From positions 1 through 34,898 of the IMG/VR virus record IMGVR_UViG_3300034096_001238: a stretch of 34,898 nt of DNA, one strand, 5' to 3'. The notes below the pieces were generated by a model. That model was not told the origin of the DNA. It worked only from the letters and a program-made list of their open reading frames with translations, and made no database searches. This DNA is from a virus. Positions 11,712-34,889 of the stretch are shown here, in pieces. Position 1 is the first letter of the stretch. Each line of letters starts with the position of its first letter. The translations under genes and the position numbers were made by a program.

Positions 11712-12010
11712 ACAATATCGATGGCCCTTCCCTCGCAGAGATACGGGGGAGGGGCAATCTTTACCGTCAATGGTTCTCCAGACTTTCAGAGGAGACCGTG
11801 ACGGTGAGGACGAATGACGGGGAGATCCTCGTAAAAGGCCTGTGGACAGGTACACGTTTCCTGTGCACAGGTTTCACACTGCTGTCAGGTACCATCGTTC
11901 CTGAGGCGGACGTCCTTCAGAGGATGGCCAACAGGGAACGTGGGCTCAAGGAGGAGGCTTCTGCAGATATAGAACTCAGTCTATCCCTGCAATCCAACTC
12001 AAATTATTGA
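11708..12010 (+). CDS. Hypothetical protein (100 aa), last + strand gene
   Basis: A 100-residue protein of unknown function, starting in an ATGA overlap with the previous stop. The central part reads like a small beta-barrel (EETVTVRTNDGEILVKGLW, then TRFLCTGFTLLSG). The C-terminal helix is acidic and Ser-rich. Its last 35 bases overlap the end of the giant gene on the opposite strand, so the two operons meet tail to tail inside coding sequence. No known motif is recognised. Confidence 0.62.
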   Translation: MNNIDGPSLAEIRGRGNLYRQWFSRLSEETVTVRTNDGEILVKGLWTGTRFLCTGFTLLSGTIVPEADVLQRMANRERGLKEEASADIELSLSLQSNSNY

Positions 12011-17252: not shown

Positions 17253-20200
17253 GGCAGTTCATCGTTAGTGTCAGGGGTACTTTCCACAGTAGCGGTCTGC
17301 GAAGGTAATGTCCTTTCAGCAAGGTTCAATAGGTGCCGGTGTGACTTGCTTGCAGGGACCAGTATCTCTTCCGAGGTACCTGTCCCGTTCTTTCTGAACA
17401 GTCTCAGCTCACGTTCCTGCTTCATCAGTCCTGTCCTGGCCTTATCCTCAAGACTGACATAGTACAGGCCAGTTGCAGTTTTTCCTTCGGCATCCAATGA
17501 GTATTCTGCAAGGTTCCTGTTCCATGTCTGATTGGCAACATAGCTGTCAAGGAAATCCTGAGAACTTGTTGTCACCATTGTCTGTGAAAAGTTCCTGTAC
17601 ACTCCCTGTGACCACTGTGCGAACAGTTCCCCGGGTATCATACTCAGTATCTCAAATGGTGAGTTCAGCATACCTGACTGTAGTATGGCAGTGTGCATGA
17701 TGTCCATTGCGAGTTCAGGATGCCTTTCGTATATCTCCATGAAGGAATCGTACAGAGCATCCTTGTCAGCCGGTTGCAATGATTTCACTGCAGGTCTTAG
17801 AGCGTCAGGAATAGTGGTATCAGACTGCAACTGAGGTATCATGCTGTTGATCCAGAAGTTGTATCTGAGATCCTCATACAAGCTGCCGTTTTGAATAGAT
17901 GCGATCTTTCTCGGTAGGGATCCTGTACCGTACATCAGTTCCTTCATCCTCCTTCCTACTACTACTCCATCAGCGTCAGGTATGTTCTGAAGTACCCATG
18001 TACGCAGTCCGGCCTCCACACGCTCAAGCTCTTTCACCGCATCGTCCATCGATACGTAGGAATCATCTTTGAGAAAGTTCCTCATCAACTCTGTACGTAC
18101 ACTGTCTGCCAATTCCATAGAGTCTGTGATGAACATGTCCTTGAACATGCCCGGTACATCCTCAGAGAACAGTTCCATGGGGTCAAGATAGGACTCGGAT
18201 ACTATCTTTTCCAGATTCGGGAACCTGTTGGAGGCAAGTACCTTCCTGTAGTTCATGACCATGTATTGTGCATGTACCTTGGATTTAGGGGCTTTTGTGT
18301 CGAATGACTGTGCATTGACGGCATTCCCGAGATCCTCTCCGAGGGCCATGTACACCAGAAGATCCCTCAACACCTGTCCCTGCATCTCTGACAACTGCTC
18401 ATTCCCAGGTTTCTTGATCTCCTCAAGACTCATACGTGACATCTTCTGCAACTGATCCAGTGTGAAGAAATATCTTGTTTTCCCCGGGTTCCTGTACCGT
18501 GTACTCAGTGTGACATAGATGTCATACTTGCTCTGGCTTTTCTTTCTTACTCTTAGGAACCGTGAGGTCTGTCTGTCGAGCTCATAAGTGAAATCACGTA
18601 CTGCAGGTTGGTTCATGAAGTAAGCGGTCATTTCCATCGGCACTCCTGCACGCAGTAGGAAACTGACGGCCGGAGCTGTTCTCTCCCCCGCATTGAGGAC
18701 ATGCAGTTCGAAATTGCTCGCATTGTCCACCGCTGAGTTGACATTCTGGGACATGCTGTTGGAAATGGTCATCCGTTTGGTGCCTTCTACTTTCCTGTTC
18801 ATCACAGAGGACAGACTCAGTGTATCTGTGACATCCTCGAATCCCTGGAAGTTGATCTGGGCATCTTTCTTCAGTCTCTTTTTCGGATTCCGACTCTTCA
18901 GTGCCTGTACCTGTTCTGTGAGATCTATCTGTAAACCGACCTTCTGTGCCTTGATGTGATGTGTACCTCCCAATGCGTAGATGCCCACTGTGGACTTGCC
19001 ATCGAATGCGGCCCTGCTCATTCTCATGATGTTCGGTAGGGATGTGGCAGTGTGAAGATTCTTGACATTGTCAAGGTCAGGGATCATCCTGTTCTTGGAG
19101 GAGTTCTCCATCAGATCCTTCTTCAGGGTCTTAATGAGATCGGTGTTCACTGGACGGAGGAATTCAGTGGCACGTGCAGGTATTGTTATCAGGTCCCGCA
19201 TAAGGTCCATCATCCTGTTCTCCAGAGCTGCATTCGTGATCACGTTCTCCAGTTCAATATCCGGATTGAGATTTCTCCAGGACTCGAAAGGCACCAGTCT
19301 GAGTGAGCCGTCCATGGAGGTGATCCAGAATTCGGCCAGACGGTCCCCGGCCTTTTCCATGCGCACCCTCAATTGCTCACGGGTCCTGATAGGTGTATCC
19401 GTATAGGCATTTCCGAAGAGGGTCTCTGTAAGGTTGTTCAACAGGGCAAGGTCTTTTTCTGAAGGTGCCTCCATCAACTCTGTCTGGAGCTTTTCCATCA
19501 GAACCTCATATGCTCTCAGTCTCTGTGCGGCCTCGTCATTGTACCATTCCTCTAATGAATTGAAGTATGGTACCGCTGACAACGTGCCGTCAGGATTGCT
19601 CCTGTGATTCCTGAAGTACATCACAAGTTTGTCGATGTCAAAGTCGGAACCTGACTTGATGAGGAGCATGTGAGGTATCATCACCACAGGACCTGCATGA
19701 TCCGGTAGGAATTCCACTATACGGATGGTCTCTATCGAGTGAAGACCGTCCGTTGGGATACGGATACCTATGGCTTCAAGCATGTTTGAAGGGGCTATCA
19801 ATTTTCCTTCAGACATTATTCCCTGAGGGGTGATGTTGAGGTCCCTGCCTACAAGATCCCTCATGAAGTTCGGTACCCTGACCTCTGCTACCCAGTTGCC
19901 TGTGGAAGGATTCTGATAGAAACCGAGACTGGTGTCTACGAGTTTTCCATCTATCTCTGCCACCTCATAGCCTGCTTCAGACATCTGTATGAGCTGATCC
20001 CCTCTTCTCTTCTGGCGTATGATCTGTTTGCTTATGCCTCCCATGAGCACACGTTCCATGGCCTTGGGATCCACGAACATCTCGAACTTCGGATCCTGGA
20101 ATGTACGTAGGGTCTTCACAGCACTCAGGAGGAATTCCCCTATCTCTTTCGCAGTGCCCTGTTCCTCAAGGAAGTCAAGCACCTTGGAGTAGGATTCTGC

Positions 20201-23200
20201 TGTCATTCCGTATCCTTCAGGTGTCCTTTCTATCTGCAATCTCCTGAGCATGTCATTCATGCCCCTTCTGACCAGTTCTGCACGTACTGTATTGAACTCG
20301 TCCACCATACGGGCAGCAGCTTCCATTCCGGGTATCACCTTACCCTGTTCAAAGAGATCTGCTCCGATGTGTGCCTGGGCCTGTACAGCATTCATGGTCT
20401 TCCCTTTGAAGGACTGACCTATCTTCTGCTGTGATCCGAAGTAGGCAAGGTCTATGTCCACACGGTTCCTTTCCTGAATGCCCTCATCATAAGTGACCAC
20501 TCTGTTCTTCTCCCGATGATGGTATCTCGCTTCCGGTACCTGCTTTCCGAACTTGAACGCAGATGGGATCACCACTCCATCGATCTCATTCTCCCTGAGG
20601 AATCTGAGCATGTTCAGGTAGTTTACATATTTTCTACCATTGAACTGACCGAGTGTCTCATCCAAGGGAACAGAGGACATCTTGAACATGGCCGGCACGT
20701 ATTTTCCTCCTACCATGGCAGGACCGAAGAACTGGAATTTCTCAGGGGCGAATGATCCTCCCTGTATCTTCGGAGAGATTCCCTGTACCATCTCCTGATA
20801 GGCCTCTTCCTTCTCAGCACTCCATTGCCCTGTACCCCATGAGGCCATTCGCATGAAGTCCGATGTGACCCATATGGTACCATCGGCCTTGTCAGTCACT
20901 CCTTTGCCCTCCTTGCCCTTCTTCTCATTGTAGGCATTTATGACCTCCTGTTCCTGTACGAAGCTTTTGAATGCCTCCAACATTTTCCTGTCCACTTTTC
21001 CACGGAATTCATCTATGGTGACGAATCTTCCTGTGGGGCGGGAAGTGTTCTGTCTACGGGGCAACCTTCCTCCGCTCGTTTCAGTCACATGTGTTATGAA
21101 GGACTGATCCGTGTCCATCATCATTTTCGGTCCGGGACTTCCTCCAAGACGTTTGAAAAGGGACACATACACTGCAGGATCTCCGAGGAATGCCTTGAAC
21201 ATCTCATTCTTCCCTATGAAATGCCTCAAGGAAAGATCAAGGACGATGTCATTGAACAGGTCCACGGGAAGTGTCGCATAACCATTCCTGTCACGTTTCA
21301 CTCGGGAGCCGTACGATCCGGGATCAAGGCCGAGAAGACGTACATTGTTCCCTTCCATCTCCACCAGTCTCATCTCAGCCAGGTACTCTGAGAGGATGCG
21401 TGCATCTGACAGCAGGTGCTGCTTCATATCGAGTATGATGGACTTCTCGGCATTTTCCGTGTTCAGGAAGGCTTTCACCGATGCACGTATCCTGGCTTCC
21501 TCTGCAACAGTGATGTCAGTTGGTCTTGAAGGCCTTGCCCCTGATATCTTCTTATCAATGACCGCCAATGTCTTCTCGCTCAACAGACCTTTGAACATCC
21601 TTAGTGAATGCTTGGCGTCCGGTACGAACTCTATGTGATCATAGTTGTAATGCATCCGTATGGCCTGTACGATCTCATCCTCAAGGTATCCTTTGAGAAC
21701 ATTCATTGTGCGTTCCTCCTCCAGGTTCATCTCTCCTACCGCAGGCAGTCTGTTCCATATCGGAAGTTTGGCACCGAGCTCTGTCCCTTTATCCGCAGGT
21801 CGTGGCATCACTGTCACTCCGTCCATCAGGGCGTTCACGTGCATCACAAGCAGGTCACCTGTGGAAAGCTTGGCCACCTTCTCCCCTGTCACACTTCCCT
21901 CAGCATCCTTGAGACCCTGAAGTATCACCACCTCCAATCCGAGAGGCACGTCAGGATTCTCTTTCATATGCTGGGCCACAAGAGAGTTCTCAGCGTATGA
22001 TGTGTACTCTGTGCTCAGATAGGACTGGTTGTAACTCCTGCCACCTGCCACTGCAAGGAAAGGAGGATCACTGACCGAGTACCGGCTTTTACCGTCCGCA
22101 GCAGTGTATCCGAGCTCTTGGGTGCGGGACCCGTATCTGAACTCAAGACGTGCAAGTCTGTTGGCCCTTCCCATCTCATCTGAACGGCTCCGGTCGAACA
22201 TGTTGATCTCACCTCCGGCCAGCGCAGTGGTCAGAATGGCATTCAGACTCTCTCTCAGGACCGTCCCTACTGTTTCCCCCTCGAAGGTGAGATTCTTGGG
22301 GGTCAATGCCTCGGGACGGGAGAATGTGATACCGAACACTCCTGCTATCTCTATCAGTTCTCTGGCGCTCTGTATCTTCGGTAGCCGTGCCAGGAGGTTA
22401 CTCATCGACTCAGGATTCTTTCCCTCAAGTGTCACCATCCTTGTAGGCACGAACACCATCTTGGAACCGTCCATCCTGATGAATTCCGGTCTCTTTGCCT
22501 GAAGGTTCTTCTTCCAGGTGTCCTTGATGTTCTCCTGTGTTCTCAACTGTGCAGGATCGATGGAGGATATTCTTCCATCAGAGGATACCAGTGTCTCGAA
22601 CGGTGCTATGACAGTCTTTCTCAATTGTGAGGAGATCTGTTGCCTGAACAGGTAGGCAGTGGTGTCGAGAGGAGCAGACTTGTCCCTGTTGATGTGATGC
22701 AGTTTCTCCAACCTTCTCAATACCTGCATGCCCCAAGGATGTACAGGATCAGTGCTCATCTCCTTTGCCCTTGACAGGATGTCCTTCCAGTCACGTGCAT
22801 CTTTCATGGCCACCTGTACAGCGTTAAGAACCTCTGTGAGATCGTACAGCCCGTTCATTCCATACCGTTCCACTCTTCCCTTCTTCACGATGGTACCGAA
22901 CAGGAATCTGGCCTCCTTGCCTGCCATGCCTATCACGCTCGTATCACCGAATTCCCTGTCCCAGTTCACGTCCTTCGAGGCGGCTTCCTCCTCTTCCTTC
23001 CCTATTGTCCGTTCGTCATCCTCTTTTCCCTCATTCTTTGCAGCCTCCCCTTCCACTTCCACGAATTTCATGTCCTGCAGATAACTGTTCAGCATGGACT
23101 TTATCCGAGCCACCTTGGTACGGTCTGACAGGAGTTCATTGATGTTCCGTCCTATCAGATCCAACTGACCTTTCAAGGCCTCCTTTTCCAAGGAACCCTC

Positions 23201-26200
23201 TGCAAGTGACCTGTCTTTCTCCACCAGCTTCTTCTGGAGGGAGACTGATGTGAGGGAGAGCAGTGTATTAAACTTTCCTCCAGGCAGTTGAGTCTCTGCG
23301 AATGCCTGATACACGTCCGCTATGGAGTGTATCCCTTTCTGCTGCAGTGTAGGATTACGGCCGTCCAGGTTGTCCAGATCAACCAGTGAGGCCATCTCTG
23401 CAAAGAACATGTGCTGAAAATCCCTCACCTGTTCCATGGACACTCCATCAGGACGTGTTCTCATGTAGACATCACTTCCTATGGCCCTGATAGGTGCAGG
23501 TACCGCATGCAGGAACCGACCGCTCTCCAATTCCTTGAAGAATCCGTCTATGCTCTTCACATCCGGATCGAACTCGAACCGGTCATTGAGATTGAATAGT
23601 CTTCTGAGCAGCAGTCGGATGGAATCGAAGAACCTCTGTATGATGTTCCTGTCGTCTGCAATACCTTCTTGTCCCACTTTCCGGGTCATACCTGAGAGAA
23701 GCCATTTTCTGAACTCCTCTGCCAGCCATTCATCTGCTTGAGTATCGGACATCGTATTGAAATTCACGATGTTGCCCAGGTAGTCCTGAACCTCTCCTTC
23801 AAGTTGTCTGACCTTTCCGTACAGCACTTTACGGTCATTGGGGGTCAGGACGTACAGGGAGACATTATGGAATGCCTCGTGATATACTCCCCCGGCCGGT
23901 GCGAATGAACTCAGCAGGACATCCCCGTATCCTCTCAGCTGGGCCACTGCAGGATCATCCAGCCTGCCGAGCAGTGTCTGTACGTGTGTCACCTGTATAG
24001 GGGTCATCTTCTGGGCACGTGCGATCTCCTCGGTGACCGACTCCTGTATGGCATTGAACACAGGACTGTCTGCCTGTATCGTACGCATGGAGGTCTCGAT
24101 GAGTATGGCCGTCATCACTTCCTCCTGCAGATCGGTGGAGAGATCACTGAAGTTGATGTCGCCTTTCATATTCTCAGTGAGGTACTCCAGACTGTAGTTC
24201 CCATCAGGTGACGGTGAAGGCTCTTCCAACACCATCTGCTCATTGTTCAGGTAGAAGGTAAGGGTCAGTCCATCCTCCTTGTCATAGATCAGACTATGGA
24301 ATCGTGGTTGTACCTTTTCAGAAGCTTCTTCTGTAGGATCGGTGACACCTTTTAAGGCCGCTATCGCTGCGGCATTGTCTCCAGTGAATACCACATCCTG
24401 CCTCTCTGAGGGTCCTCCTGCAGTATCCTCATCAGCAGGTGTCTCCTCGAATGCCCGACTCAATGCATCGATACTCCCGGCCATGGGATTCGGATCTGAC
24501 AATGTAGAAGGAGTACTTGCAGTGGTGACAATAGGTGTTGCAGCTCTGGGAGCCATATCCTGAAGCGCGACATTCCTGTCCACAGTTGAAAGACGTTCCT
24601 CTGACAGATCTGTTGAACTGTACACAAGGTATCCTCCCACGGATGCAGGGGTCAACTTGGAATCTGTCTTGTACGCTGACATCCTTGACATCACCGGCGC
24701 TTTTCCGTTCACAGGGGTCAATAGGAACTTGGTGTAATTCGGATAGGAGTCGATCACTTTCACTGTAAGGTCCTCCTTCAACTGTACCCTGTTCCAACTC
24801 TTATTACCTGCAAGGGTGTCAGCTTTCACATGATACCTCTTATTGGCAAGGAATTTCATGAAGGCCTCGTAGACATGGTTCTTGGCCTCGAAGTCGGCAA
24901 TGGTGATCTTTCCTTCCAGACCGAATATGATATGTGAGTTCTCAAGTCTGGACATTATCTGATACTCTGACGGGCTGTCCTTGTCCCAGTGCTCGTGGAT
25001 GATGTCACGTATCTGGGAACGGAGTGTGACCCCTTTCCAGAGATCCAGATCCCTTGCACCCTTCCGGGCAGTGATATGATCCACTCCGGCAGCACGTGCC
25101 TGCAGATAGGTCTTCAGCATCAGGTGGTACATCCTGGCCACGTTCACACTGTCCTCCTGTGACAGCAGTGATCTTTCCATAGGTATGTATCTTCTCCTCT
25201 TAGAATCATAGGCGAATACTTTTCCCACTCCTGCGACCACACTTCCTGTCGCTCCTGGGAATTCCACAACGGTCGATCTTGTTCCCTTGTCAGAGGTCGA
25301 TGGCATGGAAATCTTCAACGGTACTTCTGCGAGATCAATCACGGACATCACATCGTTGATAGGGAGAAGAGGGTTCTTCTTATCCCCTACTTTCGTTATA
25401 GGGACTCCTGAGCTGCCATGGAACGGTCTGATGAGCACAGGATTGTCAAGGGCAAGGAGTCTTTCACGCTCTGCCTTGTAACTGTTCAACATTTTTTTCT
25501 TCCCATCCTCACTCAATTGATTGAGGTCATGGAAACGTGGAGTGCCTTTTGAGGTCTCAAGGTCAGCGTCCATCATACTCGCGTAGATGAACTTGCCCTC
25601 TTCAAGTATGAGTTCGTAGGAACCGTCCGCTGATACTCTCACAGGCACCATCTTGAGCTCCTGTGATTCCGTCTCCCCTTCTTTCAGGTAGAATGTACCT
25701 GCCATTCTCTCCTTGAGGGCATCTGGTACACTCCTTTCAGAAAATACGAGCATCCTGGTGGTTTTGGACTCTATCCAGTTGTCCATGTCCTCAGGGTTCT
25801 GAAGCCACTTGTACCATCGTATGATGTTGTCCACCCTGTCCAGTTGCACCTGCTCCTCCTGTGTACGGTCCTTTATCGCAGATAGCTGCTTGTGCCTGTT
25901 TATGGCGGCTGAGTGACTCTGTGAGGTACTCTTATGGAAGCCTATGTCAATGGAAGGTAGGAATCTTCCAGGACGCTCGGCATCGATCAGGGCATCGAAG
26001 TCCTCCTCTGCATTCTCTGCAGTGAAAGGCATCTCCTCCACTTCACTCATATCACTCATGTCAGGGGCCGCCATCACTCTCTGAAAGACATCCACCATAC
26101 GTACCCGCATGTAGTCCCTTCTGATCGTATCGGATTCTCTCTGTATCTCTGCCAGTTCCGCAGTGTACTTCTCCATGTTCGACAGCAGTTCATCCCTGAG

Positions 26201-29200
26201 GGCCGTTCTCTGCGCCACGAACAGTCTGATGTCCCCTGCATACACATTCTCAAGTTCAGCGGCAAGTGCAGGGTCTGTCTTCTGAAGCTCCGTCAATGTG
26301 GTCACCAGATCCTTGGTGGCAGATGCTATGAGAGCCTCTGCGGTCGCTATCTGGGCCTTCAATACCTCAAGCTGCCTGGTAGTGTCATTCACACGCTGAT
26401 TGAGCATGTCGATCGTTCCCTGCACGTCCTCGTCCAATTGACGCTTGGCCTGTACGTACCTTCTCATCAGTACCTCGGATCCTTCAGTGCCTGCATTGAA
26501 GTATTCCAGTTCCTCACCCTCTTCCACGAACATGTTCTCAGCGGCCTGCACAGCCTCTATGAATCTTTCGAGATCATTCTCGGTCACATTCTCCATTGAC
26601 AGGAGGTCAGTGGCCTTGAGCATGTCATTCAGTTCCTGACGTGCTACTCCCACTTTTCCTTTTATGGCATTGAACTCCTCCTCGTGCACATCCTTCTCTC
26701 TGGTGGCAACGGCAAGATCTGCTTTCAGTTCTGCCATTGTGATCTTACGGGAATCCATTCCTTTTCTAAGATCCTTGCGTGCAGTGGTCGCACTGTACAG
26801 TTCAAGTTTCTTATCAAGACGTCTCAACCGTTCTTTCAGGTTCCTGTCTATCCTCTTCAATGTGGGGAGGAAACTGAGGTCCTCTGCACTGTCAGACCGT
26901 TCAGCATCAAAGATTACATAAGCTTCCAGTGCCTCTATGTCCCTTGCGAGGATGGACACTATCCTTTTGGCGTAATGCTCACTGACGGGCAGTCTTCCCT
27001 CCTGTATGAGGAAATTGATCCTCTTGTATTCCTGATACAACCATGAGGATGCTTCCTTCACGTTGTTCAGTTGCTGACGTACTATGGGCTCGTCCTTTTC
27101 TATGAGTTCCAATGCTCCGAGAACATACCCTGGAGGATCGAACAGCATTCTGGAAGCTTTTACGGACTCTGCCTCATCAGCTGCTTCCAACTGTCTGATC
27201 TTTTCATTCAGAGCATTGAATTCCGCTTTCAGCTCAGGCATCTCTGCACTGAGTTCTGCAATGTTCTCCTCTATGCCGGCCACACTTGCAATTTTCATCT
27301 GCAGTGTATCGCCGGTCCTGGCCATGGCCTCTTTCAACTCCTCAAGACGCTCTTCGAGATCAGCGTATCCGACAGCCTTGTATGCCCGGATCCTTTCCTG
27401 CATGTCACTGATGGCCGTGTTGACTTCCTCAAGGGCTGTCACTGCCTCTGCTTTTGCCACTTCAAGTTCCTTCTCCACCTTCTCCACCACCTCTCTCTGT
27501 ACTCTCAGCATCTCCTCGAATGTCTCCGGGGCCGATGCTGCGATGAACATGTCAGTGAACTGCTTCCTCTGTATCCTCAGTTTCCGAAGATCATCCAGTT
27601 TCTGGATTATCTCATTCTGATTGGCAGTGGCTGCTATGGGATCCCTTTGGAACAATGCATCAAGAGACTCCATCTCCACATCCCTCTTGGACTCAAGCAG
27701 GATACCTATCAAGGGCTGGGTCATATCCTTCTCAGCGGACAGTACCTTCTCAAATTCACGCAGTCCTTCCAGATCCTCCTGCATGGCCACTGGACGTCTC
27801 TCAGGATTCACACGCTCTATGTCAGCTATCCTCTGCCGTGTCTCCATGAGCTGGCCTGCAACAGATGCATTGAGGTTCAGAGTACCCATACGGGCCACAC
27901 GGATCTTGCCGTCCGTCTGCCTGTACACGATCTCATCCACCATATCAGAGTCTTCAGCGAATTGCACCTCACCCCCGGTCATCTTTGCCAGTTCAGCGAT
28001 GATCTGTTTCTCACGCTTATCGTTCTCCTCCGCCTTGGATGCATAGCGCATCATGAACCTGCGTCTTCCGGCACTTGAACCGATATTGTTGACGTCATCC
28101 ACGTTGGCATACTTCTCCTCGAAGGTCATCGGGAAGGAGCTGTCGATCATATCTGCAACCTTCTTGAAACGGGCCACCCGGTCACTGAAGGATCTTTTGA
28201 GCTCCTCCTTCCTAAGGTTCAGGTCCTCCAAAGGCATTGCAGGGTCATATCCGTAGACCTCCTTGAAAGAGTCAGGATCCATTTTCATGCCCTCTTCGAA
28301 CATCTTCATGGCATCCTCAAGCTGTCCCGTCTCGTTGAGATAGAACATGTGGTCGAAGAAGTCATCCTCTTCAAGGTTCTTCGCATCGAACACACGTCCC
28401 TCCTTCTCAGCGAGTATTCGGGCCTCTACCCTTCCATGCAACTGTTTTGCAAGGAATGCGGCATGTGCCTGATTCAGATATTTCTCAGGATGGGTCTTCT
28501 TGTGCTCCAGGAACTTGTCTTGAAGTTTCTTTTTGAACTCCTCCAGATTGTTCTTGGCAGTCAGTTTTCTTGATGTCTCTGCTATGGATCCGGACATGAA
28601 CATCCCTGAACCTCCTGCGGCTTTTGGCATTCCCATGAGACCGAGAAGGAATCCGAGTCCTATTTCCGTCTGTCCTTCCTTGGTGCCTATGGTCTCACTC
28701 ACAGCCTCTCCGAATCCTCCTATGTACTCACCGAGATCAAGTTCGAACTGTTTTCCTGAACGGGCTGCATTGTAGGCATAGTGCTCTGACATACGTGCGA
28801 GTACACCCTGACCTCCTTCTTCCACAAAACCTTCGTGAACACCTCTCACTGCCCACTTACCTGTACCTACCACACGTGCGGCACCGACATCTCCAAGGCC
28901 GGTCTTTTTGATCCCTTTGATTGCAAGATCCTCTACTTTTCCTGCAGCTTTCCCTGCGGATCTGAACATTCGTTTCATTCCCGGACCGTACATGCCACCT
29001 AACATGATGGCGTTACCGGATCCCACAAGGAACATGTTGCCGGCGAATTGCATATTGGAGAGTCCCACAGCCATGTCCACCATGTTCTTCCTGTCCTCTG
29101 CAGGTATCATTTTCAGCTTCTCCTCACGGGTAGGAGGAGTGCCTGTGCTCTGTTCATATGCTTCGAACATGGACCTGTACTCAGGGTTCTCCAAGGCCAG

Positions 29201-30064
29201 ATCCAGAGTGGAATCGTACCCCATACGGGCCTCAAGTCCTGATTCATACACGGCACCCGTGGCAAGATGAGCAGAGGTCGACAGTATATCAGACCACATT
29301 CTCTTGGTGGCCAGGTCTGCACCTTCCTTTACTATGCCCTGTCCTGTCATGTTCCTCAGGTACTTCATACTCCTCATGGAATTGAACATCCTGTTGCTCA
29401 TAGCGGCCTTTGCACCAAGTGACATGCCTTTCAATGCCACATTGGTCAGTCCTCCGGTAAGGGCGGCCCCTGTGAGGAAAGAGAGACCGTTCACAAACTG
29501 GTCTCCCCAGAAGTTGTAGGTACCCACCTGTCCGAGAGCTGACTTCTCTTTCTCAGCCTGCATGTAGTAATGAGGGAAGGACTCCTGCATGTCCTCTGTC
29601 AGGGAGTCTATGAACCGTGCAGCACTGTTATTCCATAAAGGCTCCAGACTCCATGTCATCAATGCCTTGGGAGCACCGAGCAAAGTCGCACCGGCACCTG
29701 CAGTATTCAATGCGGTACCTCCTACAAGCTTGACCATTGAGTTCCCCACCTTGTCATAGAGAGGCTGGGACTGGGCTCTGAACTCATTCAGATTATTCAG
29801 CTGATGCGCATAGTTGACACCTGCATCATATTGAGAGGCCCCATAGTCGTCCGGAAGATCTACTACACGTGCAGCACTACTTGAAGAACTTGCAAGACTG
29901 ATATCAGTAAGAGCTCCAAAGAAGTCTCCCTTCACAGCTTTAAGATCTTCCTCTGTGAAAAGACTGCTGACTTCCTTTTTCTTTTTTACAGGAGGATCGG
30001 TGACTGATCCTGAAATCGGGTCTGAAAGTTGTGACAGGTCTTCTTTTGAGAACAGATTCGACAT
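17243..30064 (-). CDS. 4273-aa giant polypeptide with crAss-like phage RNA polymerase and zincin protease domains
   Basis: An uninterrupted 4273-codon frame. Seen in order: tandem N-terminal motifs LFSKEDL (4-10) and LFTEEDL (35-41); Gly/Ala-rich hydrophobic segments (about 112-135, 190-222, 340-362, 466-490) that could insert in or cross membranes; long charged coiled coils (about 790-1325); a Pro/Thr/Ser linker (about 1837-1890); a zincin motif HEAFH at 2062-2066 with E2116/E2117 as third-ligand candidates; a highly charged linker (about 2336-2364); and the RNA polymerase core with DFDID at 3474-3478. phi14:2 gp66, a crAss-like phage polymerase with this motif, is packaged and transcribes early genes after ejection; the same role is inferred here. 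The fusion is far larger than gp66 (about 2180 residues), so processing into several chains is plausible. It starts 55 bases after the upstream late gene, without a Shine-Dalgarno. Confidence 0.88.
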   Translation of the reverse strand: MSNLFSKEDLSQLSDPISGSVTDPPVKKKKEVSSLFTEEDLKAVKGDFFGALTDISLASSSSSAARVVDLPDDYGASQYDAGVNYAHQLNNLNEFRAQSQPLYDKVGNSMVKLVGGTALNTAGAGATLLGAPKALMTWSLEPLWNNSAARFIDSLTEDMQESFPHYYMQAEKEKSALGQVGTYNFWGDQFVNGLSFLTGAALTGGLTNVALKGMSLGAKAAMSNRMFNSMRSMKYLRNMTGQGIVKEGADLATKRMWSDILSTSAHLATGAVYESGLEARMGYDSTLDLALENPEYRSMFEAYEQSTGTPPTREEKLKMIPAEDRKNMVDMAVGLSNMQFAGNMFLVGSGNAIMLGGMYGPGMKRMFRSAGKAAGKVEDLAIKGIKKTGLGDVGAARVVGTGKWAVRGVHEGFVEEGGQGVLARMSEHYAYNAARSGKQFELDLGEYIGGFGEAVSETIGTKEGQTEIGLGFLLGLMGMPKAAGGSGMFMSGSIAETSRKLTAKNNLEEFKKKLQDKFLEHKKTHPEKYLNQAHAAFLAKQLHGRVEARILAEKEGRVFDAKNLEEDDFFDHMFYLNETGQLEDAMKMFEEGMKMDPDSFKEVYGYDPAMPLEDLNLRKEELKRSFSDRVARFKKVADMIDSSFPMTFEEKYANVDDVNNIGSSAGRRRFMMRYASKAEENDKREKQIIAELAKMTGGEVQFAEDSDMVDEIVYRQTDGKIRVARMGTLNLNASVAGQLMETRQRIADIERVNPERRPVAMQEDLEGLREFEKVLSAEKDMTQPLIGILLESKRDVEMESLDALFQRDPIAATANQNEIIQKLDDLRKLRIQRKQFTDMFIAASAPETFEEMLRVQREVVEKVEKELEVAKAEAVTALEEVNTAISDMQERIRAYKAVGYADLEERLEELKEAMARTGDTLQMKIASVAGIEENIAELSAEMPELKAEFNALNEKIRQLEAADEAESVKASRMLFDPPGYVLGALELIEKDEPIVRQQLNNVKEASSWLYQEYKRINFLIQEGRLPVSEHYAKRIVSILARDIEALEAYVIFDAERSDSAEDLSFLPTLKRIDRNLKERLRRLDKKLELYSATTARKDLRKGMDSRKITMAELKADLAVATREKDVHEEEFNAIKGKVGVARQELNDMLKATDLLSMENVTENDLERFIEAVQAAENMFVEEGEELEYFNAGTEGSEVLMRRYVQAKRQLDEDVQGTIDMLNQRVNDTTRQLEVLKAQIATAEALIASATKDLVTTLTELQKTDPALAAELENVYAGDIRLFVAQRTALRDELLSNMEKYTAELAEIQRESDTIRRDYMRVRMVDVFQRVMAAPDMSDMSEVEEMPFTAENAEEDFDALIDAERPGRFLPSIDIGFHKSTSQSHSAAINRHKQLSAIKDRTQEEQVQLDRVDNIIRWYKWLQNPEDMDNWIESKTTRMLVFSERSVPDALKERMAGTFYLKEGETESQELKMVPVRVSADGSYELILEEGKFIYASMMDADLETSKGTPRFHDLNQLSEDGKKKMLNSYKAERERLLALDNPVLIRPFHGSSGVPITKVGDKKNPLLPINDVMSVIDLAEVPLKISMPSTSDKGTRSTVVEFPGATGSVVAGVGKVFAYDSKRRRYIPMERSLLSQEDSVNVARMYHLMLKTYLQARAAGVDHITARKGARDLDLWKGVTLRSQIRDIIHEHWDKDSPSEYQIMSRLENSHIIFGLEGKITIADFEAKNHVYEAFMKFLANKRYHVKADTLAGNKSWNRVQLKEDLTVKVIDSYPNYTKFLLTPVNGKAPVMSRMSAYKTDSKLTPASVGGYLVYSSTDLSEERLSTVDRNVALQDMAPRAATPIVTTASTPSTLSDPNPMAGSIDALSRAFEETPADEDTAGGPSERQDVVFTGDNAAAIAALKGVTDPTEEASEKVQPRFHSLIYDKEDGLTLTFYLNNEQMVLEEPSPSPDGNYSLEYLTENMKGDINFSDLSTDLQEEVMTAILIETSMRTIQADSPVFNAIQESVTEEIARAQKMTPIQVTHVQTLLGRLDDPAVAQLRGYGDVLLSSFAPAGGVYHEAFHNVSLYVLTPNDRKVLYGKVRQLEGEVQDYLGNIVNFNTMSDTQADEWLAEEFRKWLLSGMTRKVGQEGIADDRNIIQRFFDSIRLLLRRLFNLNDRFEFDPDVKSIDGFFKELESGRFLHAVPAPIRAIGSDVYMRTRPDGVSMEQVRDFQHMFFAEMASLVDLDNLDGRNPTLQQKGIHSIADVYQAFAETQLPGGKFNTLLSLTSVSLQKKLVEKDRSLAEGSLEKEALKGQLDLIGRNINELLSDRTKVARIKSMLNSYLQDMKFVEVEGEAAKNEGKEDDERTIGKEEEEAASKDVNWDREFGDTSVIGMAGKEARFLFGTIVKKGRVERYGMNGLYDLTEVLNAVQVAMKDARDWKDILSRAKEMSTDPVHPWGMQVLRRLEKLHHINRDKSAPLDTTAYLFRQQISSQLRKTVIAPFETLVSSDGRISSIDPAQLRTQENIKDTWKKNLQAKRPEFIRMDGSKMVFVPTRMVTLEGKNPESMSNLLARLPKIQSARELIEIAGVFGITFSRPEALTPKNLTFEGETVGTVLRESLNAILTTALAGGEINMFDRSRSDEMGRANRLARLEFRYGSRTQELGYTAADGKSRYSVSDPPFLAVAGGRSYNQSYLSTEYTSYAENSLVAQHMKENPDVPLGLEVVILQGLKDAEGSVTGEKVAKLSTGDLLVMHVNALMDGVTVMPRPADKGTELGAKLPIWNRLPAVGEMNLEEERTMNVLKGYLEDEIVQAIRMHYNYDHIEFVPDAKHSLRMFKGLLSEKTLAVIDKKISGARPSRPTDITVAEEARIRASVKAFLNTENAEKSIILDMKQHLLSDARILSEYLAEMRLVEMEGNNVRLLGLDPGSYGSRVKRDRNGYATLPVDLFNDIVLDLSLRHFIGKNEMFKAFLGDPAVYVSLFKRLGGSPGPKMMMDTDQSFITHVTETSGGRLPRRQNTSRPTGRFVTIDEFRGKVDRKMLEAFKSFVQEQEVINAYNEKKGKEGKGVTDKADGTIWVTSDFMRMASWGTGQWSAEKEEAYQEMVQGISPKIQGGSFAPEKFQFFGPAMVGGKYVPAMFKMSSVPLDETLGQFNGRKYVNYLNMLRFLRENEIDGVVIPSAFKFGKQVPEARYHHREKNRVVTYDEGIQERNRVDIDLAYFGSQQKIGQSFKGKTMNAVQAQAHIGADLFEQGKVIPGMEAAARMVDEFNTVRAELVRRGMNDMLRRLQIERTPEGYGMTAESYSKVLDFLEEQGTAKEIGEFLLSAVKTLRTFQDPKFEMFVDPKAMERVLMGGISKQIIRQKRRGDQLIQMSEAGYEVAEIDGKLVDTSLGFYQNPSTGNWVAEVRVPNFMRDLVGRDLNITPQGIMSEGKLIAPSNMLEAIGIRIPTDGLHSIETIRIVEFLPDHAGPVVMIPHMLLIKSGSDFDIDKLVMYFRNHRSNPDGTLSAVPYFNSLEEWYNDEAAQRLRAYEVLMEKLQTELMEAPSEKDLALLNNLTETLFGNAYTDTPIRTREQLRVRMEKAGDRLAEFWITSMDGSLRLVPFESWRNLNPDIELENVITNAALENRMMDLMRDLITIPARATEFLRPVNTDLIKTLKKDLMENSSKNRMIPDLDNVKNLHTATSLPNIMRMSRAAFDGKSTVGIYALGGTHHIKAQKVGLQIDLTEQVQALKSRNPKKRLKKDAQINFQGFEDVTDTLSLSSVMNRKVEGTKRMTISNSMSQNVNSAVDNASNFELHVLNAGERTAPAVSFLLRAGVPMEMTAYFMNQPAVRDFTYELDRQTSRFLRVRKKSQSKYDIYVTLSTRYRNPGKTRYFFTLDQLQKMSRMSLEEIKKPGNEQLSEMQGQVLRDLLVYMALGEDLGNAVNAQSFDTKAPKSKVHAQYMVMNYRKVLASNRFPNLEKIVSESYLDPMELFSEDVPGMFKDMFITDSMELADSVRTELMRNFLKDDSYVSMDDAVKELERVEAGLRTWVLQNIPDADGVVVGRRMKELMYGTGSLPRKIASIQNGSLYEDLRYNFWINSMIPQLQSDTTIPDALRPAVKSLQPADKDALYDSFMEIYERHPELAMDIMHTAILQSGMLNSPFEILSMIPGELFAQWSQGVYRNFSQTMVTTSSQDFLDSYVANQTWNRNLAEYSLDAEGKTATGLYYVSLEDKARTGLMKQERELRLFRKNGTGTSEEILVPASKSHRHLLNLAERTLPSQTATVESTPDTNDELPCP
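18575..20827 (-). other. RNA polymerase core (two double-psi beta-barrel region)
   Basis: Residues about 3080-3830 of the giant protein. The sequence GIRIPTDGLHSIETI, then VVMIPHMLLIKSGSDFDIDKL, matches the catalytic barrel of crAss-like phage RNA polymerases; D3474, D3476 and D3478 would bind the catalytic magnesium. About 300-350 residues upstream, lysines K3128 (MFKMSS) and K3171/K3174 (AFKFGK) fall where the second, beta-like barrel is expected. Downstream, SAVDNASNFELHVLN and then a P-x-x-R-D-F stretch (about 3760-3820) are also typical. The motif is seen; the barrel boundaries are inferred. Confidence 0.85.
23585..23932 (-). other. Zincin metallopeptidase-like domain
   Basis: Residues about 2045-2160 of the giant protein. 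GVYHEAFHNV supplies the H-E-x-x-H zinc motif (H2062, E2063, H2066), and about 50 residues later ADEWLAEEFRKWL supplies E2116 or E2117 as a possible third ligand on a helix. This layout is common in metallopeptidase domains within phage polyvalent and crAss-like late proteins. A role in cleaving this polypeptide or other virion proteins is inferred, and no cleavage site can be assigned. Confidence 0.65.
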
Positions 30065-30119: not shown

Positions 30120-32096
30120 TCAGAACGGTGCTTTCTGTCGAGGCTCCGATATGTCCTTGTAAACGCTTGCTACTTTTCCATTGTACCTGCGCACATTCTG
30201 TATGTACAATTGTGTCAGATAGCTTTCGGCATCTTCAAGATACATTTCTTGCGGTGTTCCATTTACGTTCATGGCCACTTTGGTACGTAAACGGGTATTG
30301 GAACCTTCGGTCTCTATCACATTCCCTGCAAGCACAGTTTCCCCTCCTATTGATACTTTTATCGGAGCGTCTGTCTTTTTCATAGATGCTTGGAGATTGT
30401 ATATTGATGCCAGTCCTTCAAAGTGCAGTGCCTGATCCTTGTAGACTTCAGTGATAACTGAGTACACGGATCCATCATGCACTATCTTGTGTCTCCATCT
30501 ACCGGCATTCACTCCATTTGTTATCTGCTCTGTGGATCCTGGAGCATCTTTACTGGTAGGATCGACTGATTTCTTGAAAGTGTCCACCACTCCACTTCCC
30601 CATCCGAAAAAGCCTGTATCCCCAGCATCCGGACCGGATGATCTTGTAGACTGACTGTAGATGGCATCTTCAAGACTTGCAGCAGGTTCTCCATTCTCTT
30701 GGAACAGAACTCCTTGACCTACAGAATTAAAGCTGTGGTACAACAATGCTTTTGCTGAGGTCTGATCTTCCAATAGCACTGCATATGGCTGTACAGATTG
30801 CTGGAACATTCCCCCCATTCGTATCAAGTGATCCTTCTCAGACTCTCCGGCTCTACGTGGGACATCCTCCTGTAATTTTTTATTGGCTCTCAGGAATGCC
30901 ACAAAACTCCTATCATTCGGTTGCAGGTCTCTTACGGCTGACGTAATATTACCTGCATTGTATGCCTCCAACAGTTTTTGAGTCGTCACAGATTCCTTAC
31001 CGACCTCAAACATTGCCATGCCTCTACTCTTAGCACTGCCTATGGGAAGAGGTGTGAAAGCATTCTCAATACTCTTTGCGCTTCCGAGTTCCTTGAAAGG
31101 ATTCTGACTGAGCTGATCGGGTACGAGTGTGGGCATGTACGGAGACTCTGTTTCCTTGTTGGTAGCAGCTCTTACTCCAGACGCATCAGTGATCTTGAAC
31201 ACATTGCTGACCAGACCTATCTGCTTGGATCCCACATTGAATAGCATATCCTTTAGCATTCCCTTGGATTCATTCTCAGTGTAGGTGGTGCCTGTCGTAG
31301 GATTCACGAACAACTGATCGTTGGCAGCAATGAACTGCTGTCCTTCAGGTGAGTTGTACAGATTGGAGGCAAGGGCGTCTGTCAGATCCTGGATCTTCTT
31401 CTTCGACACTCCCACACTGGTATACCCGTACAAGGGCATGTCATAATTCAGAAGGGCCTGTTCCTCTGGTGACCATCCAGCGGCCATGGCAGCCCGTCTG
31501 ATGGTCGCTCCTCCGTCCTTTGCCACGTCTGCGATCAGATTATTGATCCTTCCCTCAAGATCCTGTCTGAGGGCCACCTTTGGTCTGTAGATCCCTTGGG
31601 TGTCCGAGTCCCATACGTCAGCGGCACTCTCCATCACAGGGGCATTGGTCACAGGGTCGATCACTGCCTTACCCTTGGCATCCTTCTTCACCTGCATGTT
31701 GAAGTCATACACATTGGGAGCACCATGCTTTGCGATCAGCTCAGCTTTCAGTGCTTCTCCCGCCTCCCAGTTCTTGTAGGAGTCTATCGCATTCAGAACA
31801 CTGTGGTCTGTAAGGAATCTCGATGTCGCATCAGTGATGGTCTTCCCCATGTTTTCGAAGTCCACCCTGTTGTTGATGATACTGTCAATGTTCATCTGGG
31901 CACGGTTGATCGCCTGAGCATCGTTCCCTATGGTACGTACAGACCCTATGGCACGGTCAAGGAGGGACTTTGCGGCCACACCCTCATCGTACCTTCCCCG
32001 AAGTGTCTCGGCGATCTTAGGGAGGTGCGTATTGAGTACCACGGGCTCATAGTCCCTAAAGAAACCCTTGGGTTGGAATAGACTCTCGTAGGCCAT
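30120..32096 (-). CDS. Hypothetical late protein (658 aa), probable virion or cargo protein
   Basis: A 658-residue soluble protein of unknown function in the late operon, between the repeat-rich 928-residue protein and the RNA-polymerase giant. The N-terminal 200 residues are mostly helical with a charged character. The middle contains Gly/Asn-rich loops, and the C-terminal region (about 540-640) looks beta-rich (WRHKIVHDGSVYSVITEVY, then IKVSIGGETVLAGNVIE). No enzyme motif, signal peptide or membrane segment is seen. Position and size match the genes before the RNA polymerase in crAss-like phages, which encode virion-internal or tail-associated proteins; this assignment is from context only. 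The start lies six bases after the previous stop, following tandem stops TAG-TAA, with no Shine-Dalgarno. Confidence 0.78.
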   Translation of the reverse strand: MAYESLFQPKGFFRDYEPVVLNTHLPKIAETLRGRYDEGVAAKSLLDRAIGSVRTIGNDAQAINRAQMNIDSIINNRVDFENMGKTITDATSRFLTDHSVLNAIDSYKNWEAGEALKAELIAKHGAPNVYDFNMQVKKDAKGKAVIDPVTNAPVMESAADVWDSDTQGIYRPKVALRQDLEGRINNLIADVAKDGGATIRRAAMAAGWSPEEQALLNYDMPLYGYTSVGVSKKKIQDLTDALASNLYNSPEGQQFIAANDQLFVNPTTGTTYTENESKGMLKDMLFNVGSKQIGLVSNVFKITDASGVRAATNKETESPYMPTLVPDQLSQNPFKELGSAKSIENAFTPLPIGSAKSRGMAMFEVGKESVTTQKLLEAYNAGNITSAVRDLQPNDRSFVAFLRANKKLQEDVPRRAGESEKDHLIRMGGMFQQSVQPYAVLLEDQTSAKALLYHSFNSVGQGVLFQENGEPAASLEDAIYSQSTRSSGPDAGDTGFFGWGSGVVDTFKKSVDPTSKDAPGSTEQITNGVNAGRWRHKIVHDGSVYSVITEVYKDQALHFEGLASIYNLQASMKKTDAPIKVSIGGETVLAGNVIETEGSNTRLRTKVAMNVNGTPQEMYLEDAESYLTQLYIQNVRRYNGKVASVYKDISEPRQKAPF

Positions 32097-32102
32097 GGAT
32101 TA

Positions 32103-34889
32103 CTATTTTTTGTTCAATGATGCGAGGAACTTGTCAAGATCAGCCTGTAGTCCTGTACGCTTGAATCTTTCAAGAGCACCGGTGTCACCTGATATGGCCT
32201 CAGCATATCTACGGTTCATCGCAGTGTCAGCAACAGCCTGTGTACCTTGAAGTATCTGATTCACAATGGCCTGTGTACGTTCACGTTCGAACGTCTTGGA
32301 AGCGGCATCCTGTGCAAAGGCCATTTCCCTGTACCGTGCAGCGTTCTCCTCATTGAACATGTCCGCTTGCAACCTCGAGTCGATGTTACCGGCCTTTTCA
32401 GTCGCATCCACCTGAATGTTCAGACGGTCAGCATCTGCACGTGCCTGTTCATCTGCACGGACTTTTGCAGAGTACGCCTCCTGAATTGTGGACGATGCTC
32501 CAGGCCCTTGACCTCCTCTGAGAATTGCATCGAGCATTGCACGGAAATCCTGCTGAGAACGTGCTATTTCCGCATCAGGTGATATGCGATCAAGGAACAT
32601 CTTCTCCGCCTTCACGCGAGCCGCCTGAGGTACAGGAACCTTATCGAAATCCTGTGTCGCAGTGGCTATGATACCTGCAAGGGAACCCAGTCCTGAGATC
32701 ATCTCAGGTGCGTATTTGAGATAATCAGGTCTTGTACTTGGAGGAGTGGCCGGGGGTCTTGTTTCCGGATTGTCGTATCCGGCCCTGTTCACTTTGGCCT
32801 CTTCCAGTCTTCCCATATTGTAGTCCTTGTCCAGGTGATGGAAATATCCTTCCAATCCTGAAGGAGTAGCAGGTGGGGCCGGAGGTGGTGATGCTGGTGC
32901 TTTCGGCTTTTTGGGAGCTGGAGGTGCAGGAGGTTGAGCGGCCCTGTTCTTGTTCATCAACTTCACATAGGCATCCATCTGTCCAGGGGTCATGTTCGGA
33001 TTCTGAATGAAAGGTGAGAGACTCGGAGTACCGTTCTGATACTTCATCAGTCCACCTTTCTTCGCAGTCTGGTCCATGCCCTGTCCACCGGCTCTTCCTG
33101 CAAGTGCTTCCTGATACTGCATCAACTGGTTGATCTCAGAGTCTGATGCACCGTTCTTGGAGAGCTTCTCGTACAACTGGGCCATGGACATCCCTGACTG
33201 TGGATCCTTGAGGTGATCAGACCACACATAGTCTCCCTTTTCAAGTTTCATAGGTACTCCTCCCTGTTCATGAGTGGGGCCATTGACTTTGACATCTCTT
33301 TTACCACCATTCTTCATGATGATCTCATCCCCTTCAAGCTCTGCATTGGCGTTCTTTATCTGAACACCGTCAGAATAATGCATTCCTCCTGCTTTGTATT
33401 CCATCATGCCTCCGTCTCTTTTTGCAAAGTTTCGTGCAAAGTTGGCTTTTCTTCTCATCTCAGGAGAATACTCACCCTCAGGTGCGTTTAGGATTTTTGA
33501 TGCAGCTTCCTGAACTCCCATGTCCATTCTGGTCGCTTGGGCCTTAAATGTTCCTTTTTTTGCAGGATCTATGTAGATACCACCGTTTTCCCATGTGGCA
33601 CGTGCATATGCCCTGAAATGGGGATTCCCTTCCAGATTGCTTTTGTGCCTTGCATAGAAGGCCTCCTTACCGTGCTTTGATTCAGATCTTTCTCCCATGT
33701 TGGGATTACCGAAGTACTTTACAGAACCATCAGGGCCTGTCACTTTATGGGTCTTCCCTTTACGGTCATCGGATCTTGTGACCGTGTATCCTCCTTTACC
33801 GTACTCCATCATTCCTCCCATTCCCATCTTGGCAGTCTCTGCTGAGTCTCTGAAAGCCTGAGCTGTAGGAGCTCCTGAATCTCCGGGACTTCTCATGGTC
33901 TCCCCTGAACCTGCTTTGATCCTTTCACGTTTGGCGTGTATGTTGGCATAGAGTCCTCCTTTTCCGTAGTCCATCATGTCCATTGCACCTCCGTATTTGG
34001 CTGTAGGTATCTGTCTTTCCTGCATGGCGTTCATTGCTAATTCCTGATTGTTGAGGTGTGATCCTCCAGTGGTGCCTCCCTGGGTTCTGCGATTTTGACG
34101 GGCAAGGCGTGCCTGTTGACTTTCATAGTCTTGTTGATCCGACATTCCTTCTATCATATCCGGTATTATTCCAAGACCTGTCCAGGAAAGAACTGCTCTT
34201 CCATAGTCCTTGTTCTCAGCATGATCGAATGCTGACTGGTGAGGGGTGAACATTTTCATTGCATTCCCGACACCTGCTGCAGTTTCATCAGGATAGGCAT
34301 CGATCATCTTACCATCAACCTCTACACGTTGTTTTCCTGCAGCAGATTGTACACCTTTTACCACTCCTGTTGCAGCTCCTATGATCTGGCCTACCACTGG
34401 AATCGCAGACACTATGGACTCAGTAGTACCTTCAGTGATAGCACGTTGTCCTGCACGCTCTGTGGCTTCAGTATCCATATTTTCACCGTATCCCATCACA
34501 GATCCTCCGTATTGGTATGTGCCGTACATATTCCCTGATCTTGGAAACATGTTAGCGGCACGGTACTTTGCAATGGCCACATTCTGTTCACGCCCCATAC
34601 GGTTGGCCTTGTTGATGGCATCTATCCGAGCCTGAGCCTGCATACCGGCACCTATTCCAGCAGTGATGGCCCCGACTGCAGCAGTACCGAATCCCAATGC
34701 CTGATCAGCATTGAATCCTATACCTTCTGTACCAGTACCAGTACTCCCATTAGGCATCACAGACGCATTGGAGTATCTTCCAGGATTCGAAATTCCAGGG
34801 TCAGTACTCGGTCTCCATCCTGTACTGGACGGATTACTGAAGGATGGGGTACTATTCAGTCCTGATCCTCCCAACTTATACTTCTTCAT
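32103..34889 (-). CDS. 928-aa late protein with Y-x-x-G-G repeats and Pro-rich linker; probable capsid cargo/structural protein
   Basis: The first - strand gene in the window, probably a virion-internal (cargo) or tail-associated protein. Seen: repeated short Tyr/Gly motifs (see the repeat entry); two hydrophobic Gly/Ala stretches (about 62-83 and 158-181) like those of ejected proteins; a small domain at about 384-437 with FGNPNM, then FYARH, then AYARATWENGG; a conserved-looking acidic segment NAELEGDEIIM with a G-x-T-H-E-Q-G-G loop (about 514-544); a Pro/Ala/Lys linker (651-677); and a helical C-terminus (about 720-928) rich in Ala, Gln and Arg. It ends in TAG followed directly by TAA. The frame stays open for the nine bases upstream of the ATG, so the start cannot be fully fixed. 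Comparable proteins occur before the RNA polymerase genes of crAss-like phages. The function is inferred. Confidence 0.8.
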   Translation of the reverse strand: MKKYKLGGSGLNSTPSFSNPSSTGWRPSTDPGISNPGRYSNASVMPNGSTGTGTEGIGFNADQALGFGTAAVGAITAGIGAGMQAQARIDAINKANRMGREQNVAIAKYRAANMFPRSGNMYGTYQYGGSVMGYGENMDTEATERAGQRAITEGTTESIVSAIPVVGQIIGAATGVVKGVQSAAGKQRVEVDGKMIDAYPDETAAGVGNAMKMFTPHQSAFDHAENKDYGRAVLSWTGLGIIPDMIEGMSDQQDYESQQARLARQNRRTQGGTTGGSHLNNQELAMNAMQERQIPTAKYGGAMDMMDYGKGGLYANIHAKRERIKAGSGETMRSPGDSGAPTAQAFRDSAETAKMGMGGMMEYGKGGYTVTRSDDRKGKTHKVTGPDGSVKYFGNPNMGERSESKHGKEAFYARHKSNLEGNPHFRAYARATWENGGIYIDPAKKGTFKAQATRMDMGVQEAASKILNAPEGEYSPEMRRKANFARNFAKRDGGMMEYKAGGMHYSDGVQIKNANAELEGDEIIMKNGGKRDVKVNGPTHEQGGVPMKLEKGDYVWSDHLKDPQSGMSMAQLYEKLSKNGASDSEINQLMQYQEALAGRAGGQGMDQTAKKGGLMKYQNGTPSLSPFIQNPNMTPGQMDAYVKLMNKNRAAQPPAPPAPKKPKAPASPPPAPPATPSGLEGYFHHLDKDYNMGRLEEAKVNRAGYDNPETRPPATPPSTRPDYLKYAPEMISGLGSLAGIIATATQDFDKVPVPQAARVKAEKMFLDRISPDAEIARSQQDFRAMLDAILRGGQGPGASSTIQEAYSAKVRADEQARADADRLNIQVDATEKAGNIDSRLQADMFNEENAARYREMAFAQDAASKTFERERTQAIVNQILQGTQAVADTAMNRRYAEAISGDTGALERFKRTGLQADLDKFLASLNKK
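33027..34886 (-). repeat. Dispersed Tyr/Gly motif copies within the 928-aa protein
   Basis: Seven variants of a short Y-x-x-G-G or Y-G-G motif occur at residues 4-8 (YKLGG), 127-129 (YGG), 299-301 (YGG), 308-312 (YGKGG), 364-368 (YGKGG), 498-502 (YKAGG) and 617-620 (YQNG). Several are preceded by K, E or D and by Met/Gly runs such as GGMMEY. They are spread over two thirds of the protein rather than in strict tandem. Confidence 0.7.

Follow-up and report, generated by a model that had tools for sequence, protein, structure and literature searches.

Nearly all polinton-like viruses have conserved a member of the small-protein family Tlr6F, and so have several virophages, numerous large eukaryotic viruses and some phages; the accessible text of the report describing the family connects it with no domain whose structure or function is known (PMC4642659). 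The family has been equated with PF19058 (DUF5754) in a paper whose accessible part also names phages (PMC12220804). Virophages and algal viruses appear as further carriers in the accessible portions of two other papers (PMC8547959, PMC3671162), and DUF5754 and DUF5872 proteins are both listed for a Chrysochromulina virus in the available text of PMC12085832. The presence of Tlr6F in phages is already published, and the membership of eukaryotic viruses is taken here from these papers. The other described system of importance is the cargo protein 1 of crassviruses. According to the available part of PMC10172136, residues 425-552 of this protein in crAss001 (gp45) sit in the capsid interior, bound to the portal, and residues 214-245 lie in the tail barrel. 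The window analysed here is the whole of the IMG/VR virus record IMGVR_UViG_3300034096_001238, 34,898 bases in length. It encodes a 928-residue protein, most likely a cargo protein 1 according to its position and a remote profile link, and within this protein lies a 72-residue module, M2, which is called here a diverged, cargo-embedded member or sister of Tlr6F on the basis of sequence profiles. In the open-licence literature searched, neither a crassvirus cargo protein nor a prohead protease was found described as carrying Tlr6F.

Extent and distribution of module M2

A preliminary description of this DNA had drawn attention to a conserved pattern at residues 384-436 of the 928-residue open reading frame (ORF). 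The pattern is present there (33740..33582), reading TGPDGSVKYFGNPNM...FYARH...AYARATWENG. The compact conserved unit is real, and its true extent is larger than had been described, covering residues 366-437 and running from GGYTVTRSDDRKGKTH to ATWENGG. An alignment of 53 members contains 32 invariant columns, 10 of which are located before residue 384, and BLAST similarity to many otherwise different proteins ends near residue 366 on one side and near residue 437 on the other.

An IMG/VR scan with the M2 profile yielded 84 confirmed relatives, 80 of which were kept as loci, and the pattern is therefore not a product of chance. The contigs of the 4 loci obtained in a close-relative scan are all among the 80 contigs of the profile scan. 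M2 lies inside a longer ORF in all 80 loci, 65 of them recognized by regular expression and 15 missed by it and read separately; some of these ORFs are truncated at the locus edge. In the first set, every one of the 52 distinct contexts has GG on both sides of the module, as have 14 of the 15 missed loci, the remaining one (L062) having a direct GG on the right only. All counts made by regular expression, here and below (M2 loci, GG contexts, DUF5754 columns and protease fusions), overlook diverged copies. Among 27 records searched with the M2 profile, the module is present in 23, as one copy in 22 and as two in the other. It can be seen that M2 is absent at E (expectation value) <= 0.001 from crAss001, phi14:2, Dulem virus 41 and cr10_1, which differ from the window in this respect.

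Relationship of M2 to the Tlr6F/DUF5754 family

The best Pfam family for M2 is DUF5754, matched by 35 of the 53 isolated modules under the curated cut-off (best E 0.0051). The family phrog_7595 matches 50 of the 53 modules (best E 1.2e-5) as well as all 4 tested DUF5754 proteins from IMG/VR. Comparison of profiles with hhalign gave E 5e-7 over 65 of 72 columns against four DUF5754 proteins, and E 3e-7 over 45 columns against 28 proteins, all of which match DUF5754. In the controls, the best of 100 column shuffles reached 0.0038, the reversed family 0.094, and 11 other modules 0.2 or worse. A DNA-pattern search for DUF5754-like proteins returned nothing with a first pattern and 14 stretches with a second; 5 of these hold the motif in a DUF5754-like frame and 9 are copies of an unrelated short frame. 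Four of the five frames were used, the fifth (L093) breaking off at the motif. A eukaryotic origin was considered for the contigs that carry the nearest DUF5754 proteins (L098, L100, L103 and L104), where 2 of 10 neighbouring ORFs have a Pfam hit, one to a DNA ligase and the other to an S74 chaperone.

M2 and the Tlr6F/OLV2 family (PF19058) are alike in size, in basic charge and in the order FG, a K/R-rich part, [FY]xARH and W. The FG, [FY]xARH and final W columns fall at the same places in both, as counted by regular expression and dependent on the alignment. An AlphaFold2 prediction on 54 sequences renders M2 as a compact beta-beta-beta-alpha-alpha unit, with a predicted local distance difference test score of 83.6 and a predicted template modelling score of 0.71. 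The window copy is modelled as E4-11 E14-19 E25-28 H42-56 H58-67, and a DUF5754-type protein (L108) as E2-7 E13-21 E24-33 H45-58 H67-75. In these predicted models, the order of three strands followed by two helices is the same. Unlike Tlr6F/OLV2 proteins, which are small and separate, M2 is embedded between the GG linkers of a large cargo protein, remains under the curated cut-off and has no SD[FY]TxHK motif. It is called here a diverged sister of the family rather than a full member.

Several other candidates were considered and rejected. A PDB fold search with the M2 model returned 618 matches, none at E <= 0.001, and a second structural comparison with 997 chains gave four with Z >= 2 (best 2.6), among which the DNA-binding scaffold of SSV1 A100 (Z 2.2) was too weak to use. 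None of the 1068 matches in BFVD reached E <= 0.001, the best being A0A516MCL5 (E 0.037, template modelling score 0.65). Sequence matches to designed Scone propellers in the PDB reached E 4e-6 and 0.0026 as a whole, but 47 or worse per repeat. A Serratia phage tape measure protein matching M2 at E 3 and nine phage records matching the M2 of a relative at E 0.5 or worse were taken as chance.

The preliminary description had compared the module to DUF5872 (PF19197), and this comparison does not hold: the family is absent from the window record at E <= 0.001 and from all 53 modules at E <= 10, against 35 of 53 for DUF5754. The model itself works, passing its cut-off in 5 of 26 records. DUF5872 resembles M2 in being a small giant-virus domain that adjoins M2 in crassvirus cargo-like ORFs, but it is another family. 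Pieces of it share an ORF with M2 in the crassvirus records G003 and G004, and in G005 one piece lies in the M2 ORF and the other in the upstream ORF; with respect to the label in the preliminary description, this adjacency is a coincidence. In crassvirus ORFs of L021 (G003) and L037 (G004), the DUF5872 model is matched by two separate pieces, one for each of its ends, whose order is swapped, so that the Pfam family may consist of two modules.

The signature of FGDPNM and FxARH in unrelated viruses, named in the preliminary description, proved to be the real signature of one family, as is seen from Roseobacter phage CRP-2 gp71, which has literal FGDPNM and FRARH. This protein is linked by BLAST to proteins over the DUF5754 cut-off, has 60% identity to the L125 protein, and matches the M2 profile at E 9e-6 over 35 columns. 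The preliminary description had made its idea of a shared module depend on profile matches outside crAss-like phages; such matches exist for the family, and there are none for the window sequence alone.

Tlr6F-like domains in other phages and fusion to a prohead protease

A scan with DUF5754 seeds gave 169 confirmed relatives, 80 of which were kept, in frames of 54-194 residues. DUF5754 matches 48 of 53 tested records, once each and over the cut-off in 47; the five without a match are named phages linked by BLAST only. A tblastn search with one DUF5754-type domain reached 112 phage records, at a single place in each.

One of these domains is fused to another protein. In CRP-6 gp55, a Tlr6F-like domain with literal FGDPNM is joined to an XkdF-like prohead protease, Peptidase_S78_2 (E 6.9e-20), the only such match in 12 named phages. 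The domain of gp55 is similar to M2 (hhalign E 3.6e-5 over 31 columns), but it is N-terminal to its partner and has no GG linkers. A scan with gp55 returned at least 600 stretches and at least 599 relatives. Among the best-scoring 80 relatives used, a choice which favours complete fusions, both motifs occur in one ORF in 78, and the protease is present by profile in the other two (L281 and L283). PF14550 exceeds the protease cut-off in 17 of 17 sampled records of the gp55 type. The fusion of a Tlr6F-like domain to the S78_2 prohead protease characterizes a widespread marine group (L200 3893-4582; L204-L283).

Other arrangements were also observed. A 650-residue protein of Melnitz-2 carries the domain as its C-terminal part; in HTVC008M, the domain is a separate gene after the matching protein. 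A stand-alone gene in KBS-S-2A lies between the genes for head morphogenesis and the major head protein. Six of the 53 records with stand-alone Tlr6F have a match to DUF5872. Four of these have it at about 0.4 kb or less from the Tlr6F gene, namely CRP-2, CRP-901, in which the match contains a stop, and the near-identical G018 and G075; the distance is 4.7 kb in G015 and 20.7 kb in HTVC106P. The family phrog_16028, to which module M1 of the window protein belongs, matches 3 of the 53 at a distance of 0.5-2.2 kb, two of these being close relatives.

The carrier protein and its other modules

The features of the window are collected in Table 1. The gene order agrees with that of crAss001, where gp45 (cargo 1), gp46 (cargo 2) and gp47 (RNA polymerase subunit) stand in the order that window proteins of 928, 658 and 4273 residues have. 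An iterative hidden Markov model (HMM) search from residues 498-612 reached gp45 residues 439-510, in a 62-sequence set, at E 0.0024 and then at 5.1e-8. Direct BLASTP of the window protein against gp45 is not significant (E 0.1-0.4). The Pfam family crAss_CARG1 (PF25725) has no match in the window record at E <= 1, a point in which the window protein differs from crassvirus cargo protein 1. Seven of 24 records match PF25725 at E <= 1, five of them over the cut-off, including Dulem virus 41 at E 1.1e-39, and 8 of 44 M2-bearing proteins match at E <= 0.05. The window protein and crassvirus cargo protein 1 have in common the cargo-1 core, an M3-like segment just before it, and the place upstream of the RNA polymerase gene; the protein of Dulem virus 41 shares M3 with the window protein (59% over 78 residues). 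The term cargo-like protein in the preliminary description is therefore supported by synteny with the polymerase and by the cargo-1 profile links. The most hydrophobic 19-residue stretch may be a membrane helix as in gp45.

Table 1. Positions of the features in the window
Feature	Position	Strand	Basis
Cargo-1-like protein holding M2, 928 residues	32103..34889	-	ORF; cargo-1 core by iterative HMM; synteny with RNA polymerase gene
Most hydrophobic 19-residue stretch, residues 159-177	34359..34415	-	Kyte-Doolittle mean 1.93
M1, residues 311-359, phrog_16028 family	33813..33959	-	phrog_16028 E 6e-22; tblastn
M2, Tlr6F/DUF5754-like, residues 366-437, 72 residues, GG on both sides	33579..33794	-	
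Span of the preliminary description, residues 384-436, C-terminal three quarters of M2	33582..33740	-	
M3, residues 436-494	33408..33584	-	in other crassviruses, a separate gene as well as part of cargo 1
Cargo-1 (portal-bound) domain core, residues 527-576	33162..33311	-	iterative HMM to crAss001 gp45 residues 439-510 and Dulem virus 41
658-residue ORF at the position that cargo protein 2 has in crassviruses	30120..32096	-	position only, compared with crAss001 gp45-gp46-gp47
4273-residue ORF, similar to crassvirus virion RNA polymerase	17243..30064	-	tblastn; DFDID motif at 19645..19631
1758-residue ORF downstream of the polymerase ORF	11976..17252	-	position only

Many M2-bearing ORFs have no detectable cargo-1 domain, and one record (G021) carries M2 in two ORFs, which indicates that M2 is not tied to cargo protein 1 alone. 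When 47 M2-bearing proteins were cut at GG, 307 segments were obtained, with 19 clusters represented in at least 3 proteins; the order and repertoire of these GG-bounded modules vary between relatives. The linkers are GG-rich, with 1040 GG observed in 60 proteins against 619 expected. The net charge per 100 residues is +13 for the M2 cluster, +12 for the LWDNIR cluster of 28 segments, +9 for M3 and +15 for the DVYPSAYANGW cluster, and one cluster of 29 segments is acidic at -12. Residues outside the clustered modules have a charge of +0.3, and stand-alone Tlr6F proteins carry +20.5 net charges per 100 residues.

Cyanophages, pelagiphages and roseophages have small stand-alone proteins of the M1 family. 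The window protein as a whole is matched by 63 phage records, most of those listed through M1, a small protein of many marine phages. Identity of the window M1 with the 28-member LWDNIR module was not supported (E 0.0094 over 9 columns). In crassvirus cr10_1, the module M3 (window 33408-33584, minus strand; L006 5971-6198) is a stand-alone gene that lies between those for the peptidase and the major capsid protein. Its stand-alone form is annotated as a transcriptional regulator in cr10_1, cr50_1 and cr118_1, of which only cr10_1 showed the head context. Among 44 M2-bearing cargo-like proteins, YkuD (L,D-transpeptidase) occurs in 2, PG_binding_1 in 2 and DUF3597 in 4; these are perhaps peptidoglycan-active pieces used at entry.

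As for the neighbouring genes, the C-terminal 2585 residues of the 4273-residue ORF have tblastn matches in 77 crAss-like records. Its DFDID motif stands in the same context as in the catalytic RNA polymerase subunit of phi14:2, and a regular expression found no motif of this type in crAss001 gp47 or gp50. Family searches gave no match for the 658-residue ORF and no significant match for the 1758-residue ORF. From its position, the latter is possibly another RNA-polymerase-associated protein. Proteins similar to rIIA and rIIB are encoded on the plus strand at 6301-8964 and 8957-10108, beside plus-strand primase, helicase and exonuclease genes.

Possible role of M2

The carrier of M2 is probably packed into the virions of crAss-like phages and injected from them. 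The Tlr6F-like domain has two fusion partners, cargo protein 1 and the prohead protease, whose place is inside the head, and its free forms are small basic proteins; a head-interior domain is therefore inferred. We tentatively propose, at somewhat less than even chances, that M2 is a basic head-interior domain, a diverged Tlr6F relative in cargo protein 1 that would probably be associated with the genome and be packaged and ejected with the cargo. Under this proposal, M2, which sits between GG linkers and adjoins the portal-binding part, would touch the packaged genome or some other component of the head interior. Its packaging, and its exit through the portal at infection, would both take place together with the cargo. 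Other phages would bring the same domain into the head either as a small protein of its own or joined, at the N-terminal end, to the prohead protease.

Several observations weigh against this proposal. With regard to family membership, no M2 passes the Pfam gathering cut-off for DUF5754 of 27.4 bits, the best reaching 14.2 bits in the genome search. The window copy is not among the 35 matching modules, and alone it matches no Pfam family. At the loose threshold of E <= 10, DUF5754 matches 4 of 6 records, none over the cut-off and the window record not among them, and also 4 of 14 control genomes. No match at E <= 0.05 exists in the 44 full-length M2-bearing proteins, and direct BLAST from M2 reached no stand-alone relative. 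The hallmark SD[FY]TxHKx(3-4)R before the [FY]xxRH helix, as read from the alignment of DUF5754 proteins, is not present in the M2 modules, which have GQHPKDPERK at the position of SD[FY]TxHK, or GERSESKHGK in the window copy. With regard to function, the window copy is less basic, at +5 in 72 residues. Only 5 of 12 chosen annotated phage contexts (KBS-S-2A, CRP-6, CRP-2, CRP-3 and MW202701) have capsid, virion-protein or terminase genes at a distance of up to 2.5 kb, and 7 do not. In L010, the order of M2 and the cargo-1 domain is reversed, making a fixed place in the portal channel unlikely. Finally, the prohead protease acts before DNA packaging, which fits encapsidation better than DNA binding.

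In the principal rival explanation, the domain is a tag that binds capsid, portal or scaffold and brings the fused protease or cargo into the procapsid with no need for DNA contact. The domain is fused to two proteins that enter the procapsid, the protease fusion fits such a tag better, and the position of the stand-alone KBS-S-2A gene among head genes is in agreement with it. However, the domain is strongly basic. Moreover, the capsid architecture of polinton-like viruses and virophages is unrelated to that of these phages. Since the family is reported from those viruses in the accessible text of PMC4642659, a single conserved capsid partner is hard to imagine, and we regard this explanation as unlikely.

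Delivery of the domain as an injected effector, acting on a host target such as host nucleic acid or a nuclease, appears improbable. Ejection would be expected of a cargo-1 homologue, judging from the available part of PMC10172136, and the repertoire of GG-bounded modules differs between relatives. A host-directed role, however, does not fit the conserved fusion to the prohead protease, nor would a variable host target be expected to retain one well-conserved domain across viruses of Bacteroidota, marine proteobacteria, cyanobacteria and algae. It is more improbable still that the GG-bounded mini-domains are neutral beads which only lengthen the cargo chain, so that any small fold would serve. 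The variable module order and the excess of GG in the linkers would suit such beads, but the 32 invariant columns in 53 sequences, the single copy in 22 of 23 records and the existence of stand-alone and protease-fused forms elsewhere argue against a mere spacer. Chance likeness between small basic sequences, with M2 confined to crassviruses, would accord with scores below the Pfam cut-off, the absence of DUF5754 from full-length scans and the lack of a significant structure match (best viral E 0.037), but is scarcely credible when shuffled, reversed and unrelated-module controls are at least four orders of magnitude worse and when FG, ARH and W, in an alignment-dependent comparison, and the predicted secondary-structure order coincide.

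Significance

The two fusions suggest that the orphan family Tlr6F works inside virus heads. By placing the domain there, they make its function testable in cultured phages, namely in roseophages similar to CRP-6 and, as soon as an M2-bearing crassvirus is available in culture, in crassviruses. The cargo protein 1 of crassviruses can itself be seen as a mosaic of small modules that are common far beyond crassviruses. A wider reading, possible though held with considerable reserve, is that Tlr6F is a general head-interior, genome-associated mini-domain, exchanged together with DUF5872, M1 and M3 among double-stranded DNA viruses with unrelated capsids. If this is true, a set of modules would be used as separate small proteins, or spliced between GG into ejected cargo, or added to the prohead protease, and the crassvirus cargo protein would be the place where the role of the whole set becomes readable.

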